In this document: positions 2,121-59,077 of the stretch, piece by piece
Layout of the letters: each line of letters opens with the position of its first letter
Numbering within the stretch: the first letter of the stretch is position 1
Origin: Dromiciops gliroides
Taxonomy: Eukaryota > Chordata > Mammalia > Microbiotheria > Microbiotheriidae
Length of the DNA: 64,000 bases
NCBI RefSeq assembly: GCF_019393635.1
Contig: NC_057863.1
Span: 39,730,357 to 39,794,356, forward strand
Direction of reading: 5' to 3'
Notes under the pieces: generated by a model
The model's database searches: none
Told to the model about the DNA's origin: nothing
Seen by the model: the letters and a program-made list of their open reading frames with translations, nothing else
Program-made: the position numbers and the translations under genes

Positions 2121-3254
2121 TCTCACAGCATATTTTGAAACTTCTCTCAATGCACAGAAGAAAACATCACCTAGAAGATAATTGCAATGGAGTATATAGC
2201 AGGATCTAGAGGAGAGGGATTTTTCCAAAGTACTAGCTTTAAAGAAAAGCACAATAGGTCCCTTTCAAGCTCTGTCAACATGGCACTCTGTTACTTCAAT
2301 GGGAATTTGGGCACAGGGATAGGCAAATGGAAGCTATGTTGTATCCCAAAATAAAAGACCTCCAATAGTTACACAAAATCCTCTGTATAACTGTTATATG
2401 CTTTCTTTGAGAAGTAAGTTAAAGACTGTGTGTGCTAAGGACCACATTCCTTTTTAAAAAGTTTATTAACTATATTGCCCAACAGGAAAATGACTGTTAA
2501 GCTTTTAATGAATGTTTGTTGATTGATTGATTGGCTGGTGGATTGGAGAGCAAGCAGATCCTTGAAAGGGCATGTAATCAATTAGGAGACAGTTTTAATA
2601 GACTAGTTAAGAGGTGATAAAGGCCTGAACTAGCATGGTAGTCAAATGAGTAGAGAAAAAGAGATGAGTTATGTTGTGGAGATAGAATTAATGGCTCAGC
2701 AACCAACTGAATGTGTGTACATATATGAAAGGCTGCCACTGCTGGCACTGCTCTTGGAGGCCCCACTGCTCCACTGCCTCCACTGAGGCCAAAAAAGCAA
2801 AAAAAAATCCTGATGAGAACCAGTTTCCCAATTTTAATCCAACGAATCCTCACATGGCCTAGCAGGCAAAAATGCCACTCAGTACACCATCAGAAGAGAG
2901 AGTTGACCCTGTGGAAGACTTTGCTTAGTATTTACAAGTATCCCCTGGAGTGAAGATGGGGATACGGAATGCAAATTTCAAGGGATGTTTTCATTAAATG
3001 TCTCTCCTAAGTTTTGACTTTTGGTAATGACTAATGCAGGCAACTATAATATGGAAGATCATCAGGAAATAAAACACACTGTGCAGGCAATTTCAGAGAT
3101 TTAGCCAACTCCCTTGGTAACAGTAGGAGGCTGAAGGCCAAAGGCTTTTATACTTCAAGTCAAGGATCTTCAAGAAATAAAATTCTTAAAGTGTCTTATT
3201 GCTCTTGTGGCATGGAAGAAAAAAACAACACAGCTTGATTGGTATATATTACAT
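2121..3254. other. Mostly unassigned; short L2-like tail
   Basis: Near 2500-2535 the text AATGAATGTTTGTTGATTGATTG resembles an L2 tail. Around 2563-2650 a piece resembles the unassigned dispersed repeat seen at 59,545-61,420 (GGTGATAAAGGCCTGAACTAG). The 91-codon minus frame at 2578-2853 is not supported as a gene. Confidence 0.35.
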
Positions 3255-3440
3255 TAAGATTTTGCAAATCACTCCACTTATTTAACTTTCCGGATCACTT
3301 TTTGAGGAAGCTGATGTTATCAGATCCATTTTACAGATGAGGCTCAGGGAGGTTAAGTGTCCAGGGTATGCCTCAGGTAGGATATGAAGTCATCTTCCAA
3401 AAAACAAGTCACCTGCTCCATCTACTATGCAATACTGCCT
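3255..3440 (-). mobile_element. MIR-like CORE-SINE fragment
   Basis: CCATTTTACAGATGAGGCTC, GGAGGTTAAGTGTCCAGGG and a decayed head at ACTGCCTCTCC mark an antisense copy. The neighbouring AATAATAATACTAATAAC tract follows it. Confidence 0.65.
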
Positions 3441-6299: not shown

Positions 6300-6640
6300 T
6301 GGACATTTTCAGAATATTAATTCATTCAACAACAGATAAGAGTAACTTCTCTGTGCCCGGCACAGTGAAGGAAGGAAGGAAGGAAGGAATAAAAGAACAT
6401 TTATTAAGCTCTTATTAGATGTTAAGTATTGCGTAATATTCTGGGAATAGAAACAGGCAAAAAAATAGTCCCTACTCTCAAGCAACTCAAAACACTCTAA
6501 AATGGAGTGGGCATACACACTGGAGGATTCAGTTGTTGTGCAAATGCAAAATCTAGGGCTGATGGCAATTCCCAGGAGTCCTTAAAGACCAAGGTCCTAG
6601 GTCCATGCATCACTTATTGGTTGAAAAGCAAAGGACATCA
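6300..6640 (+). mobile_element. Unassigned dispersed repeat, copy 1
   Basis: Shares an ordered set of motifs with copies at 9100, 16,680, 19,920, 23,808, 39,565, 48,375 and 59,545. The motifs are a 'GCACAGTG' block, 'ACATTTATTAAGC', a tract naming the insertion flank (CTCAAGCAACTCA), then GGCAATTCCCAGGAGTCC. A short (GGAA)n lies at 6369-6388. I do not recall the family name. Confidence 0.5.
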
Positions 6641-6654
6641 GTGAACTTGAGGCA

Positions 6655-6825
6655 GATAATAGTCGAGACTATAATTAGAAAATCCTGAGTTTATATCCTA
6701 CCTGAGAAACCTATTAGCTATATTAACCTGGACAAATCACTTAATTTATCTCAGTCCCAGTTTCCCTATCAGGGAATTGAAGTAGGTTCCATCCAGTTCT
6801 AATCTAGGTTGTTAGAATCTTTGAT
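6655..6825 (+). mobile_element. MIR-like CORE-SINE
   Basis: Sense copy with TGAGTTTATATCCTACC, ACAAATCACTTAATTTATC and TCAGTCCCAGTTTCCCTATC in order. Confidence 0.65.
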
Positions 6826-7534
6826 CATATCTCATCCCAATAGCCACCCTCTTCTCCTCTCTATTCTCTGAGGTTGGTTGGATCCAATTATATTTCTTAT
6901 CACACATGGAGTTCCCATACCTCCACCCACTTTCTCCACCACTTCCTTCCTGTTAGTAGTGTTCATTCACAATTCTCAGGGATTCCATCTTCATCTATAG
7001 CTGGAGAGCCTGATGTCCCAGAGTTCTCTTCTCTCCAAGTTTTCTTTGCTCTAACATCTGAACTCTGAGCATTAAAATGACAAATTGCTTTCAACCAGCT
7101 ATGTTTCCCTCTTTGGTTGTTAGCATCTGGCCCTTGGAATGGCTGTAAAATGCATAGACCATAGAGTTCATGCAGGTTTTTTCAAAAGCTATTAACAAAA
7201 AATCTAAGCTAAAAGTCTATTTTTATGTTCAGCAACAAAAACTAAATCTACCCTTGTTTCCTGATGGTAAAGATTCCATCCTTTCAGTTTTAACCATTTT
7301 GTTGTTCCTATTTGGTGGAAGATATTTTCAGATACTAGCCCTCTAACACTGGCTTTGTGAGGGGAAAACAATAATTGTAAGCCCTTGTAAAAGTTTAGAA
7401 ACATAGACTCTAAGAATTATAAAATACCTGAGAGTTCATCTAGTCCAAACTGTCTTTAAACATGAATCTGCTCTATACATCTCTAACAAATGGTCATCTA
7501 AGGTCCTCTTGGAGATAGTCTTGAAGGGGAACTG

Positions 7535-7785
7535 GTGATAGAGTGAATAAAGGATTGGACCTGGAATCAAGAAGACATGAATTCAAATCTGGCCTCAGAC
7601 ACTTTCTAGTAGTGTGACCCTTGGGAAAGTCACTTAACCTCATTCTGCCTCAGTTTCCCCATCTGTAAAATGGGGACAATAATAACACCAACCTTTTGTG
7701 GGTTGCTTTGAGGATAAAACAAGATAATATTTGCAAAGCATTTTGCAAACATGAAAGCCCTATGCCATTGCTATCTTTTATTTTT
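7535..7785 (+). mobile_element. CORE-SINE (THER type), near full length
   Basis: Head GGTGATAGAGTGAATAAAGG, B-box GAATTCAAATCTGG, then CAGTTTCCCCATCTGTAAAA and tail TATTTGCAAAGCATTTTGC. Inserted in the L3 relic. Confidence 0.85.
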
Positions 7786-7919
7786 TTTAACTTTCCATAC
7801 TAGCTCACCTCAGTTTTAGATACCTCTAATTATTGGATCCATTTTCCTTATATTGAACTGAAATTTAGCATCACAGCCCTTATCACAATATATATTTTAG
7901 CCAAAATAGCCTACTCACT

Positions 7920-40090: not shown

Positions 40091-40582
40091 TGTGAGATTT
40101 AAAATTGGATATTAGATCATAAATCTCCCCTACTTAACCTTTCCCTTAATTTATCTCCCAGACTAGTAAATGGAAGAAGCTTTTGGTTTTCTAGATAGAC
40201 CTTTTATTGTTATGGTAGTCACAAGGTGATGTTGATTAGAAGGATAGAAAAGTAGAAACACAATACAAATCGTCTTAAGTCTAAGCTTAGTCTATATTCC
40301 TTATAAAATCTCACCAAATCCGAAAGCTACCTTTGGAGAGAGAGAGAGAGACCGTCTGTGCAGCACAGTCAGGAGACCAGCAGAGCAGGAAAAAGCCCCC
40401 ACTTCCGTTCTCTCCTTGTCTTTTAAGCTCGCACCCCGGAAGTCGAGTGCGTAGCAGGCAGTCTGAAGTGCGCAGCAGGCGGACTTTGGTCTCCTCCCCA
40501 AAAGGGTGGTCCTTCAAAAAAAACTGGCGTCTTTCAGTTATCCTAACCGACTGTTAAAAAACTTTCATATTTTTTTACCACA
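40091..40582 (-). mobile_element. Endogenous retrovirus LTR (492 bp)
   Basis: Minus strand TGTGGTAAAAAAATATG to AAATCTCACA, directly after a polypurine tract. It carries AATAAA in ATAACAATAAAAGG and a GC-rich U3 with CpGs. It forms the 3' LTR of the partial element to its right. The 5' LTR is not in the window or has been lost. The short overlapping frames here are not genes. Confidence 0.75.
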
Positions 40583-40594
40583 TTTCCCCCCTTT
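40583..40594 (-). other. Polypurine tract
   Basis: Minus strand AAAGGGGGGAAA immediately before the LTR TG. This is where retroviral plus-strand DNA synthesis starts. Confidence 0.75.
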
Positions 40595-40910
40595 GCTTCC
40601 TCAAGAAACGGAATGTTTCCTTGATGGAACAGTAAAAAGAATATAATAACTATTGCTAACTAATAATATGTTAATAACAATATAGAAAAGGAAGAGAGGA
40701 AAGTTTTGTCCAGAGGGGCGATTTTTTTTGTCCTCATGAACCGACGCTTTGACATTAGCCTTGCAAAGGGAGAGCCTCTGCAGAGAGTACATGTTACAGA
40801 TAGTATATATTATAACAGAAAGGAGATAGTAAAAGCTAATAAAGCAAAACAGTTCATATAAAGTCTCTGAGTTCTCTTGTCTTCTTGAAGTAGTAAGATG
40901 TCATCAGGAG
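40583..40910 (-). mobile_element. 3' internal end of an endogenous retrovirus
   Basis: Aligns with 57,615-57,935 of the young element. About 10 differences in roughly 190 bp next to the polypurine tract (near 95% identity by eye). A 63-codon frame is open in both copies, but 7 of about 9 changed codons alter the amino acid, so coding selection is not supported. It may be a remnant after env or an RNA-level element. No retroviral protein motif is visible. Confidence 0.7.
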
Positions 40911-40995
40911 GAAACTGGATTCTGGTCTGGAAAACTGGATTCTGGACTCTGGTCTGGAAAACTGGATTCTGGACTCTGGTCTGGAAAACTGGATT
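40911..40995. repeat. 27-bp minisatellite in the retroviral relic
   Basis: Three units (one lacks 7 bp) plus a partial one of AAAACTGGATTCTGG followed by ACTCTGGTCTGG. The young element has no such array at the matching point. Confidence 0.9.
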
Positions 40996-41208
40996 ATCTT
41001 CCTTAACTGTTTGAATTGCTGTCTAAATTCAGTATGCTTCCCAATTTAAGGAAGGGTACATATCTGGGGTATGGGCAGTGATGGAACAGGAAATATATTC
41101 TAGTACACTGGGAGATTTCCACACAAGTGATGAACCAGCTCTAATTACATAGATGTAGAAAAAGGCTCATCACTAACAAAAATTTCTCTACCTATTCACT
41201 AATGTCTC

Positions 41209-53945: not shown

Positions 53946-54561
53946 CATTATAGGAAGAAAAACATAAATAACATCATTAAAACATAAAAAACATCATTAC
54001 CTATATGTGAATCTCTAGCAATAACCCCTAAAAATAAGCATGAGGACATTTCTCATAGAAAATATGACCAGTAATGCTTAAAGAAATAGATCTCCTTCTC
54101 TTCTTTCTCCATCTCTCTTTCCACCCCCTAACACCTCTATACGTCTATCTGTCTTGCTTTTATTTTCTTCCTCAGAAACTGACTTTCTATAACACCAGAA
54201 ACAAGCAGACATCAGAGTCTATGTGGCCACAGAAAGCTGACTCTGACTGAATAACAGAGGCTACAGGGCTATGGGAAGATGATGTAATATCTTCAGGGCT
54301 GATGCCCTAGGAGGTAATCAGTGTAAAGCTGTGCTGCTAGGTCCAGTAAGCAAATGGGCACCTTAATATATGGGATGGGTCACATCCACAGCTTCCCCCT
54401 AGGGATTTAGCATAACCTTATATGGGTGAGAGACATGTTTCTCAGACATAGACATCCCAGGGGTGCCTCTTCCCCCTACCCAACATCTTCCTTTCCAAAA
54501 TGACTCCAGATCTTTGCACCCCTCCACCTCATATAACAAAATGGCTCCATCTTTCTTCCTC
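53946..54561. other. No feature recognised
   Basis: Unique-looking, up to the retroviral insertion site. Confidence 0.4.
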
Positions 54562-54565
54562 CTTT

Positions 54566-54935
54566 TGTAACGATTGGAATAACGCCACCTGCTGGATACT
54601 AACTGTAGAAGAGTTCTGCCCATGAAGTGAAGGTCTTTGAGGGCAAGACCAGGAGTCTTGTCTTTGGTATCAGGAAGTGACGCGGACTAGTGGGAGGAGG
54701 AAGGAAGAGACTGGCGCTCGGTCTCGCTCTCTTCCTTTTGGACTCTGGCGGAGAGTGGAGCTAGAAATGTGCTCTCCCTTTAATAGATAGGAATCTAGGC
54801 CTTTCTTTCTCTTTACCAAATTCTTATTCTCCTTAATAAATGCTTAAAAGCCTAACTCTTGCTAAAGCTTATAATTTATTGGCGACCACTCATTAAATAG
54901 TTTAGACAGTTTAGCTAGAATTTTAGCCCTTAACA
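54566..54935 (+). mobile_element. 5' LTR (370 bp)
   Basis: TGTAACGATTGG to AGCCCTTAACA. It has AATAAA at 54,835-54,840 and a GC-richer U3 with CpGs (GTGACGCGGACTAG, CTGGCGCTCGGTCTCG). An inverted match to the CTCF core lies at 54,583-54,595. No clear TATA box. Confidence 0.95.
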
Positions 54936-54937
54936 GA

Positions 54938-54955
54938 TGGCTGACCACGAAGAGG
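54938..54955 (+). other. Primer-binding site, tRNA-Arg-like
   Basis: Two bases after the LTR, TGGCTGACCACGAAGAGG. From memory, the complement of the tRNA-Arg(UCG) 3' end is TGGCGACCACGAAGGG, so this fits with single inserted bases at two points. It sets where minus-strand synthesis starts. Confidence 0.6.
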
Positions 54956-55036
54956 AAAGCTAACCCTCAGTCTTCTTCTGATCTGCTGGTTGGGTAAGAA
55001 ATTTCCCCTCCCTCTCCCTTTAACTGCTAAGTACTG

Positions 55037-55951
55037 GTGTACTGGCTGTGTTTTTCCTTTGAATTTTTTCGAATGGACCTTTTAAACTCCCTAATTATCC
55101 TATTTTTGATTTTGGTCTGTTTAACCAGACAAATGGGAGATAAGATCATGTTAATGCTTTGTTTTTGTGGATTTTCTATTTTTCTTTTTATTTTTGTTAA
55201 AAGAGCCAGCAACTTACTCACACAAGGAAATATCTCTCCCTCTCCCAACCATGCTTTTTCAGAGAAACCTGAAGAGATTCCTGCAGCTTTTCCCAATTCT
55301 AACACTAATTGTTGCTCTAATTTTGCATGCCTGGAGGCAATGACCCACCCTCTAGAAGCTTTTAATCCCCTAGCACCTGGAGGCAAAGTGGGGGAAGAGG
55401 AATCCAGGCCTGAGTTCAAAATCAAATCTGATTCAAATTGCTCTGGTCCCTCCCCTCCTCTCCAGACCCCACCCTCTACTCCTCCTATGGCCAAGCCCAT
55501 AGCTTCCCCTGCCTGGGAAGTCCAGAGATCTGGTGCGCATGCTCAACTTTTTCTACCTGCATTTGCAGCTTCAGGCTCAGCCCTTCCCCGGCCTGGCTGT
55601 GCTTTTGAGACAATCTTAGAAAGCTCTTTAAATTCCAGATATGCTCGTTTTGTTCATAATTTTGCTAACCTGCTTTTGTCTTTCATTAGTAATCTTATAA
55701 AGCATTTGTATGGTGAAAAGACTGACAGACAATATAGAGGGGTTAAAGAAGAAAAACTTAAGCTGAATAAGAATGACAATCATCAACATAGTTCAAGACT
55801 CTGCTTCTTTTGCCATGGAAGGGTATATATTTTACAGAAATGTAGAAGTAAGCAGCAAGGTATTGATATGAGTATTGGGGATTTTAGATATCGGAATCAA
55901 AAGTGTTCTGAATTCACTCAGATTATTAATGTCAGTTCAGAGGTTACATAG
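55037..55951 (+). pseudogene. Gag-like open frame with altered zinc knuckle (304 codons)
   Basis: Likely a shortened gag-derived frame of the young retrovirus. It begins about 100 bp after the primer site. Residues 14-55 hold two strongly hydrophobic segments, unusual for gag. Residues about 135-160 are proline-rich (PSPPLQTPPSTPP), as in the linker between retroviral matrix and capsid. Around 256-269 is a CX2CX4-Y-X4C box (C256, C259, Y264, C269), a nucleocapsid zinc knuckle in which the usual histidine is tyrosine; basic residues follow. A recognisable capsid major homology region is missing and the length is well below a full gag. The ATG used is simply the first in frame, and a later Met could start it. 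The opposite-strand frame at 55,027-55,500 is a shadow. Gag identity rests on position and the knuckle, with moderate confidence. Confidence 0.55.
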
Positions 55952-56734
55952 GATTTCTATGCTATTACATATACATTTTGGAATTAATGGTATAGGTTTA
56001 TTTTCATAGAGATTTTAATGCTTTTGAGATTGTGTCTTATACTTAGTTTCTAAAACAAGGAGAATATTTGTAAAAGCTTTTTATAGTCATGCGATCAAGT
56101 TTATATTTTGTAATACTCATTAATATTAAGTTCATGCTCATTTAGATTTCCTTAGTTTGAATTTCACTGTCTTTTATTGTTCCATGTGTATTTTCTTCTA
56201 TACATTTATCTAATTTTAAAAAATTGCAAGATGGTTTTGATTTCATAATACAGTGTTAATTCTAGGAGTATTGTGCTCCCATATTCTGAGTTGTTTGTTT
56301 TTGTTATTTTTTCTCAACTGATTATTTGATCAAACTCTTTAAAGCATTTCCCTGGCAAATTGTTTGCCATGGCAAGTGTAAATTGATTCTAGAAGTATTA
56401 TTTTTGATAAGCATATTCCAAAAAAAAAAAAAGAGGGGAACATTTGTAAAAGTTTTCTTTTTTCAGAAAAAAGTTTTCTTTGATATTCTGTTGTGCTTTA
56501 ACTTGTATTTAAATATGTTCTGATTTTTCACAAAAGTAATTGTATACTAAGTGCAAAAAAAGGGGTATTATTTGAAATTGTTGCATAATTATATATTGTG
56601 TTCTGAGTCAAGATGTATTCACATTTTTTGCAATCATTTATTATCCTCAATTTTTAAATCCATATGAGACTTGGATTATGGGAACTTATCATTTAAGACA
56701 TTAATTGCCTTTATTCTGAGTTATCAGATGCCAG

Positions 56735-57262
56735 TTGGCCAAGATGCCATCCAATCACAAGAGGAATACATGCAAAGAGCAGACATTGAACTGTTACATG
56801 AGGGGAGACATGCACGAAGTTAAGGTATGGCCGAGGGAACGGCTTTTGACAAATGTTGAGGTTGGATTCTCTTGGTTTAATATTTATTTTATTTTTCCCC
56901 ACAATATTGTACAGATGGCTGGAAGTATTCATCCCACCCATCTCACTTCTACACCTGGCTTCTATGCTCCCTCCTATATGCCTGATGCCATGGACATCTT
57001 AATCCCATGGATCTGATTAAGTCTGACTCAGTTTCCTCCAATATGTTCAGTGGCATGGACGTATATTCCATCCACCTCTTTTAAGCCTGGCATACTGTAT
57101 GGGCAGTACATACTGCTCAAGTGTGGGAATGCTCATATCCCATCATTTCTCTGTTCTTTTATGGTAACCCCCATAATTATCTCAGGTGTCATGATAAATA
57201 CAGTGTTGAATTTGGCCTTGACACCTGTTACCAATTATATTAGATTTTTTAATTTCTCATAA
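56735..57262 (+). other. Two short frames in the retroviral interior
   Basis: Frames of 93 codons (56,735-57,016) and 70 codons (57,050-57,262). Just before an internal ATG at 56,914 the text TTATTTTTCCCCACAATATT followed by GTACAG looks like a splice acceptor, a place where a spliced 3' product could begin. No env motif is visible, and the function is unknown. Confidence 0.3.
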
Positions 57263-57614
57263 TGGCATGAGGATAATTAGGCAGATGATGCAAAAAGTGA
57301 TGAAACAAAGATAAAAAATTATTTTTAATAATTAATATCGCAGCAATTGTCTTCTCAATTACTCTCCATAAGGGGGGACTATAATAATAATGTAATTTTA
57401 AAGAATGGTTCAATTTTTGTTTTATTATATGTTTCATGTGTAACAACTAAGATTCTGAATTCCCTTAGACATGTTTTTGAGAACTTTCATTGTTTGATTT
57501 GATTATTGACAAAGCTATTTTAAAGTTGTGTTAAGCTCAATTTTGTAGGAAATTTTCCTGGCTGATTACCAGCATCCACACATCAACCCCTGAAAAGACT
57601 TCCATTCCACGACT

Positions 57615-57935
57615 ACACCTAGAGGACATCTGAGAAAAGACTTTCAGAGACTTTAAATGAACAGTTTTGATTTGTTCTTTTTGTTGGTTTTTTTCTCTTT
57701 CTGTTATAATATACACCATCTGTAACATGTATTCTCTGCAGAGGCCCTCCCTTTGCAAGACTAATGTCAAAGCGTCGGTTCATGAGGACAAAAAAAATCG
57801 CCCCTCTGGACAAAACTTTCCTCTCTTCCTTTTCTATATTGTTGTTCACATATTATTAGTTAGCAATAGTTATCATATTGTTTTTACTGTTCCGTCAAGG
57901 AAACATTTTGTTTCTTGAGGAACAACAGGGGGGAC
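57615..57935 (+). mobile_element. Conserved 3' internal segment before the LTR
   Basis: Shared with the older element at 40,583-40,910 (reverse orientation). Contains a 63-83-codon frame open in both copies, ending just before the polypurine tract. The changes are mostly amino-acid changing, so it does not look protein-constrained. Confidence 0.7.
57926..57935 (+). other. Polypurine tract
   Basis: CAGGGGGGAC directly before the 3' LTR TG. Six G residues match the tract of the older element. Confidence 0.8.
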
Positions 57936-58305
57936 TGTAACGATTGGAATAACGCCACCTGCTGGATACTAACTGTAGAAGAGTTCTGCCCATGAAGTGA
58001 AGGTCTTTGAGGGCAAGACCAGGAGTCTTGTCTTTGGTATCAGGAAGTGACGCGGACTAGTGGGAGGAGGAAGGAAGAGACTGGCGCTCGGTCTCGCTCT
58101 CTTCCTTTTGGACTCTGGCGGAGAGTGGAGCTAGAAATGTGCTCTCCCTTTAATAGATAGGAATCTAGGCCTTTCTTTCTCTTTACCAAATTCTTATTCT
58201 CCTTAATAAATGCTTAAAAGCCTAACTCTTGCTAAAGCTTATAATTTATTGGCGACCACTCATTAAATAGTTTAGACAGTTTAGCTAGAATTTTAGCCCT
58301 TAACA
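57936..58305 (+). mobile_element. 3' LTR (370 bp)
   Basis: Reads the same as the 5' LTR over all 370 bases by eye. AATAAA at 58,205-58,210; CTCF-like core at 57,953-57,965. Followed by the right target duplication CTTT. Confidence 0.95.
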
Positions 58306-58309
58306 CTTT

Positions 58310-59077
58310 GAAATGATGGAAAAAAAATTGTTCCTTGTCCTTATCCATTAGATGACTTTGGGGAAGTATTTAAATCCCCCCAATTTGGTGAACCATCTCA
58401 ATCATTGTTTAAATGCCCTCTAAGCTTCCAGCTAGAGATTTTTGTCATTTACAAGCACATTTCCTCAGTTAGATTCCTCCCCCCCCCTCCAAAGTTATAT
58501 GAGAAATAATTTGGGGATTTTTCTTTTTAGGGATTTTATCCTTAAAACAAAATTATAAAAGCAGATGCTTTCCCTCCATTTTTAACATTATACTGACCTC
58601 TAGAGTAGAAGCAACTGAATGTCATCAGTGAAGGGAATAAACTACAAAAAGAAAGTCAATTGAAAGAAAGTCTCCCATCAGGTTTGAACCCATCTATTAG
58701 ACAATAAATAGGCTTTATTTTATGGGGTCTGTTCAGAAAACATGGTTGATATAAAAGGGTTATTAAGAATACGATGTTGGAAGACTCAGATGAACTGTTG
58801 AACACCAAAGACAGCAGAGCAAAAACAATGGAAAGGAAACAACACTGAAAGGCAAATGAATTCTCATTAATTTCAATTATCATTCATTTCCCTTCAGTAG
58901 AGAGGTGGGAACTAAAGCTGTAGAATATTTCCTATACTGTCCTATATAACACATTGACTGCACTTATCCAGTTTTCTTTGTTATGAGTTGGGTTCCTTTT
59001 TGGTTGGTTCATTTGTTTGTCTAACAGCTGTCAATATCTTAAAATTAGAACAATGACATTTTTTTTAAATGTTTATC
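58310..59077. other. No feature recognised
   Basis: Unique-looking. The 75-codon minus frame at 58,656-58,883 has no known domain. Confidence 0.4.

Follow-up and report, generated by a model that had tools for sequence, protein, structure and literature searches.

TR-GAG elements of plants are reportedly long terminal repeat (LTR) elements that lack pol and carry one recognisable Gag open reading frame (ORF). The best-known mammalian satellite endogenous retrovirus (ERV), VL30 of the mouse, is non-autonomous and reportedly comprises 372 sequences in all and has no protein-coding capacity (PMC4859993). Here, we describe an LTR element of 3,740 bp, with an interior of 3,000 bp, at positions 54566-58305 of a window of 64,000 nucleotides from the marsupial Dromiciops gliroides (NCBI RefSeq assembly GCF_019393635.1, contig NC_057863.1, positions 39,730,357 to 39,794,356, forward strand); the window is the whole stretch of DNA analyzed, and positions below refer to it unless a locus is named. 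Like VL30, the element keeps replication signals without retroviral genes and occurs in many copies; unlike VL30, its family has a 292-amino acid (aa) ORF that is kept open, and its first-look candidates number in the thousands. A satellite with a kept ORF contrasts with VL30, which is described as non-coding. As in TR-GAG elements, no pol was found and one ORF of the element's own is kept, whereas this ORF is not recognised by Pfam and that of TR-GAG is a recognisable Gag. Taken as a whole, we consider it fairly probable that the element is a recent satellite ERV that is mobilised in trans and has its own maintained membrane-type protein.

Marsupial ERVs have been surveyed through their gag, pol, and env genes, and that survey reports over 80,000 ERV fragments and, in dasyurids, a recent ERV expansion in which one clade went on spreading after the loss of env (PMC11334065). 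Because marsupial ERV clades were identified via these genes, elements that do not carry them would be missed, and elements of the window type would escape ERV surveys based on gag, pol, or env. MEBrv 3 is betaretrovirus-like with gag-pro-pol and a 469-nt LTR (PMC11334065, Table 3), unlike the window element with its LTR of 370 nt, its lack of gag-pol in the frames tested, and its gamma-like relative. PhER and recombinant KoRV of the koala are likewise marsupial retroelements with pieces swapped between ERVs, a likeness drawn by description only and from partial accounts.

The non-autonomous family and its age

Paired LTRs, a short flanking duplication, a primer-binding site, and a polypurine tract identify the window element as an LTR retroelement of the ERV type (Table 1). 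A first-pass annotation, made from the letters of the window alone, had described identical 370-bp LTRs, an intact CTTT duplication, a primer site, and a polypurine tract; all of these are present, and the LTRs differ at 0 of 370 positions. Its limits (54562-58309) include the duplications, which is a trivial difference. It also saw no pol or env in the interior, and no Pfam family was matched by five plus-strand interior frames, even at an E-value (E) of 10, but it left the 292-codon ORF unreported. With no gag, pol, or env domain in the frames tested, the window element is a non-autonomous ERV. A scan of 54400-58500 against Rfam yielded seven matches up to E 10, every one of them under its gathering score.

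The genome (3,303,199,800 bases in 17 contigs) was searched with the window LTR as a query, which returned 3,298 first-look candidates. The 40 that were scored comprised the window element's two LTRs and 38 others at 96%, together representing 31 places, 30 of which were read (the window's own among them, with the place at C2:269463351 left out). Since places were picked by likeness to the window LTR, older copies are under-represented among them; older relatives of this LTR exist at 84%. The 30 places hold 23 full elements, six solo LTRs, and one truncated 5' piece, and the window element is thus not a single copy without related LTRs. LTR spacing in the full elements was 3,317-3,385, and each of the 23, as well as each of the six solo LTRs, had its own 4-bp duplication. 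That 23 of the 30 places share this anatomy, with a private duplication in each, indicates that the structure seen in the window is not due to chance. A 4-bp target duplication is the rule for class I (gamma-like) ERVs, and this length was found in all 29 of these copies. No gamma-type gag or pol was matched in the five frames of the element that were scanned, whereas Gag_p30 and MLVIN_C occur in its relative L042 (see below). We label the window element class I-like on two grounds only, the length of its duplication and this relative.

Mismatches within LTR pairs ranged from 0 to 8 per ~370 bases among the 23 full copies and totalled 32 in 8,502 aligned bases (mean 0.38%); seven pairs had none, and in one of the seven the LTRs are unequal in length by 2 bases. 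With rates assumed to lie between 1.5 and 4 x 10^-9 per site per year, these values correspond to a mean age of 0.5-1.3 million years, and the identical LTRs of the window copy to an upper bound of 1.0-2.7 million years. The claims of a recent insertion and of a recently active family were thus borne out, the former by the LTR comparison and the latter by the many young copies in this genome. The window copy is ~4% apart from other copies in its LTR and 94.6-97.2% identical in its interior; judged by the LTR, it appears to be a separate sublineage, though matches to its ORF protein reach 99% elsewhere in the genome. Identical LTRs might in general also result from gene conversion, segmental duplication, or assembly error, for which nothing was found beyond that general possibility. 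The intact private 4-bp duplication of the window element and the 22 other full copies elsewhere, with LTR pairs that differ by 0-8 bases and duplications of their own, make such an origin extremely improbable. With thousands of first-look candidates and many young copies, this large, non-autonomous, class I-like ERV family is apparently very numerous and recent, and the window element is one of its recent germline copies.

The orphan open reading frame

The ORF sits in the gag position, directly after the leader, and its 292-aa protein has two hydrophobic helices at the N-terminus, is rich in proline in the middle, and is conserved in its C-terminal third. A frame of at least 285 codons was identified in 20 of the 23 full copies, whereas the ORF is shortened in three, with stops at 89 (L012), 260 (L019), and 283 (L027). 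A genome search with the ORF protein returned 9,251 candidates, and all 134 that were scored, a best-scoring and biased sample, were open over their full length. No homologue was found among 5.8 billion proteins, a database that includes vertebrate proteins, either with the single sequence as query, at E-values of 10 or less, or with a profile of seven sequences, at E-values of 1 or less. Pfam returned no family for the window ORF, and the only match for the ORFs of six other copies was one to Med13_N (E 0.029) that fell below the cut-off. A Protein Data Bank (PDB) match to SATB1 (E 0.93) was taken as chance.

Evidence that the frame has been kept comes from older relatives. One of these, L034, has 311 codons with no stop and the same C-terminus, and the region is ~77% identical in DNA. 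The ratio of nonsynonymous to synonymous divergence (dN/dS) against L034 was 0.45 (bootstrap 0.32-0.63), with values of 0.34 in residues 1-55 and 187-292 and 0.58 between them. When substitutions alone were simulated on a single lineage, a frame without stops had a probability of ~0.10, so the openness of L034 is in itself weak evidence. The L034 protein was also used as a genome query (13,356 candidates, 127 scored, 135 rows), and 47 of the 135 rows were without a stop. Coverage of 285 or more of the 311 residues was reached by 95 rows, at 59-81% identity; 34 of them, at 65-81%, had no stop. None of the nonsense changes in the 23 full copies recurred in a second copy. Insertions and deletions (indels) numbered 8.0 per kb in the ORF versus 42.6 downstream, a gap that is largely because of homopolymers; away from these, the values were 6.8 in the ORF and 17.1 downstream, with the noncoding 3' block also at 6.8. 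Collectively, comparison of these sequences suggests that the frame has probably been kept over the long history of the family.

Several observations weigh against a maintained protein. Substitutions inside the young family look neutral, with no clear constraint in the current burst: 42 synonymous, 94 nonsynonymous, and two nonsense variants were counted, where 35.3, 94.7, and 5.5 are expected from the noncoding part, and the pooled ratio of nonsynonymous to synonymous polymorphism (pN/pS) in eight young copies was 0.74. The dN/dS below 1 depends on the single pair with L034, and 88 of the 135 rows from the L034 search carry at least one stop. The AlphaFold model from the single sequence is a low-confidence fold (mean pLDDT 47.9), and the likeness of the ORF to L042 Gag is weak and confined to a CCHC-like stretch. 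Strong selection on the ORF was considered and set aside, as it fails within the young family and the case for selection depends on the older relatives.

The neutral-looking substitutions would also be expected of a passive, VL30-type satellite, in which only the cis signals count and the ORF would be a functionless leftover, possibly of gag, that is open through the youth of the family. The three shortened ORFs are consistent with such a remnant, as are the 3' block, which away from homopolymers has indels as few as those of the ORF, and the weak similarity of ORF residues 237-267 to the CCHC box of L042 Gag (phmmer E 0.0064, with that one sequence searched; blastp E 0.081). VL30 itself reportedly spread without coding capacity (PMC4859993). 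However, the upper bound of dN/dS against a relative only ~77% identical in DNA, the 34 of 95 near-full-length matches that are open at 59-81% identity, and the lack of nonsense changes common to copies argue that the ORF is more than a remnant, and we consider the passive satellite unlikely. The VL30 description does not extend to this family, in which the ORF has a dN/dS of 0.45 in one pair and is open in 34 of 95 older matches, though it looks neutral among young copies. That one orphan ORF was kept open across long divergence while the replication genes were lost suggests that satellites may supply a protein for their own spread.

A reading of the ORF as a Gag nucleocapsid was considered but could not be proven. 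The residues of CFFCHGRVYILQKC are spaced as in a CCHC box, but the window copy has Tyr in place of His, the first Cys is variable among copies, and L034 lacks the stretch altogether.

A full-length relative and the proposed helper

A second copy of the final 290 bp of the interior lies elsewhere in the window, at 40585-40870 on the minus strand, where it precedes a different LTR. This 3'-end piece was used as a genome query (5,036 candidates, 40 scored), and the two best places were fetched, L041, in which no long frame was found, and L042. The latter has LTRs at both ends (96.7% alike, the 3' LTR cut by the locus end) and domains of Gag_p30, protease, reverse transcriptase, RNase H, integrase, and MLVIN_C, with pol interrupted by two stops. 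By eye, its Gag (6387-7796, minus strand) starts with hydrophobic segments that probably span the membrane, upstream of Gag_p30. The stretch from Pol to the 3' LTR holds no frame longer than 82 aa; no env profile was run, and a decayed env is possible.

The window element shares with L042 its last 300 nt (match at 57633-57934) and scattered upstream blocks, not the LTR. Two of these blocks, both short, lie at 56563-56708 (67% to L042) and 57489-57535 (77%), and a further one at 56158-56220 is 86.6% identical to L053, 16 nt past the end of the L053 integrase match. Since these 3' blocks are in the same order as in L042, the short element appears to be a relative without gag-pol, in place of which it holds the orphan ORF. 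Its origin may thus have been a related ERV from which gag-pol was lost, the leader and the 3' noncoding half staying and the ORF coming to occupy the gag position. The first-pass annotation regarded the element as a defective one copied in trans by a relative. It is non-autonomous, and a full-length ERV class that shares part of it could help, but it is not simply defective, having kept an ORF of its own, as has a good share of the older relatives.

The L042 family is the best candidate helper: it shares the 3' end, many of its pol frames are unbroken, and no frame for env was seen. We hold this candidacy with less confidence than the satellite reading as a whole. RNA of the short element would be packaged, reverse-transcribed, and integrated by Gag-Pol of the full-length ERV. 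The ORF protein, in which two membrane helices at the N-terminus precede a mostly disordered tail, might act in cis-preference; we would guess that it lies at the membrane where the partner's Gag, whose N-terminus is also hydrophobic, assembles, and that it favours packaging of its own RNA. Trans-mobilisation and the L042 partnership are both inferred, and acceptance of different LTR ends by the L042 integrase is the main gap.

Two findings count against this partnership. The LTR of L042 has the ends TGTGG...CTCACA versus TGTAAC...TTAACA in the window element, and a full-length helper with the window LTR, for which the first-pass annotation proposed a search, was found in none of the 30 places read (from 40 scored of 3,298 candidates). 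The primer site of L042, TTGGCGACCCTGAAGGGACC, resembles that of the window element and is not equal to it. The truncated piece, L021, was considered as a helper and rejected, as it shares the LTR and 125 nt of the leader and has no ERV match after them. The helper may instead be another, missed full-length ERV with the window LTR, with which the L042 family would only have swapped its 3' end by recombination. The 3' block that is 86-89% alike next to LTRs that differ would be explained in this way, and L052 carries the window LTR type (92.8%) within a region picked for the L042 family; the older LTR relatives add to this case. With no full-length copy among the places read, we give a same-LTR helper somewhat less than an even chance.

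In L042, Pol runs beyond MLVIN_C into an OTU domain (2204-3190, minus strand; Pfam E 5.5e-13) that matches OTUD3 in the PDB (4bou, E 2.6e-57) and vertebrate OTUD3 at ~62-67% in the core, and in which the aligned Cys and His of OTUD3 are retained. At 18 further places fetched by 3'-end matches, the integrase-OTU protein was matched by tblastn in 10. Eight of these matches extend far into the OTU domain, which in three of them contains stops or frame breaks; the match in L052 covers only the last 30 residues of OTU and that in L053 only the integrase end. A genome-wide search for this Pol end returned 4,502 candidates, and among the 122 scored, a best-scoring sample, 119 copies of the Pol end had no stop and 65 lay within an unbroken frame of 1,392 codons, which shows that intact copies exist. 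The pooled pN/pS in four open copies was 0.22 in OTU versus 0.83 in the integrase end, both from small counts. An OTUD3-like domain fused to retroviral Pol is apparently conserved in this family.

Ginger1 transposases have a Gypsy/ERV-type integrase with an OTU domain C-terminal to it (PMC2836005), an order shared by L042 Pol. Unlike in Ginger1, which are DNA transposons, the OTU domain of L042 is closest to OTUD3 and lies within a retroviral pol. A scan of IMG/VR with the integrase-OTU protein found no relative, the main text of PMC11334065 makes no mention of OTU or deubiquitinase, and no report of an OTUD3-like domain in retroviral Pol was found in part of the open literature, by which absence from print is not shown. 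In L053 (280-1701), whose 3' end and LTR belong to the L042 family, the match to L042 ends in the linker, ~120-170 nt before the OTU match. L053 may show the state before OTU capture.

The ORF of the window element could also be an accessory or captured gene that acts on the host, for example in immune evasion or membrane trafficking, and not on its own RNA. That the related full-length family captured a host-like domain would agree with this, as would the failure of protein searches to find a homologue and the chance-level PDB match. The gag position right behind the leader and the part weakly like the CCHC stretch of L042 Gag speak against this, and we judge a host-acting gene improbable. 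The satellite reading might be extended to a two-partner system, in which one partner would be a class I-like ERV of full length that has no detected env and carries in Pol an OTUD3-derived deubiquitinase kept by selection, and the other a far shorter satellite whose orphan membrane protein takes over the particles of its partner; we regard this extension as tentative and rather doubtful.

Features of the element

Table 1. Positions of the element's parts and of a related fragment in the window.
Feature	Position	Strand	Remarks
Second, older fragment: 3' end and LTR of the L042 family	40091-41022	-	94-95% to L042; LTR ~490 bp, TGTGG...CTCACA
Target-site duplication CTTT, left copy	54562-54565		From sequence; 4-bp duplication in 23/23 full copies
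5' LTR	54566-54935	+	370 bp, TGTAAC...TTAACA; 0 mismatches to 3' LTR
Primer-binding site TGGCTGACCACGAAGAGG	54938-54955	+	GA between 5' LTR and site
Possible splice donor GTAAGA in leader	54994-54999	+	Motif only
292-aa orphan ORF	55073-55951	+
3' noncoding half	56158-57535	+	Blocks ordered as between pol and 3' LTR of full-length relative
Conserved 3' block	57644-57934	+	86-89% identity; common to elements with different LTR
Predicted hairpin adjoining polypurine tract	57888-57924	+
Polypurine tract AGGGGGGA	57927-57934	+	Followed by C, then 3' LTR
3' LTR	57936-58305	+	370 bp; 0 mismatches to 5' LTR
Target-site duplication CTTT, right copy	58306-58309

The primer site, an unusual one, was the same in 20 of the 23 full copies, had one base changed in two, and was clearly different in one (L037:4441-4460), where it reads TGGCAACCACGAAGGGAT, perhaps from another primer tRNA. 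A tRNA scan of the window found no tRNA. Ahead of the 3' LTR, AGGGGGGAC was present in 21 of the 23 full copies. The hairpin next to the polypurine tract has a z-score of -2.78 in the window element and only -0.59 in the copy at 40585-40636.

An ATG that overlaps the primer site opens an upstream frame of nine codons, counting the stop (54937-54963), ahead of the 292-aa ORF. A second sequence like a polypurine tract, AAGGGGGGAC followed by TATAATAA, lies in the interior at 57370-57379 and may be a relic or a central tract.

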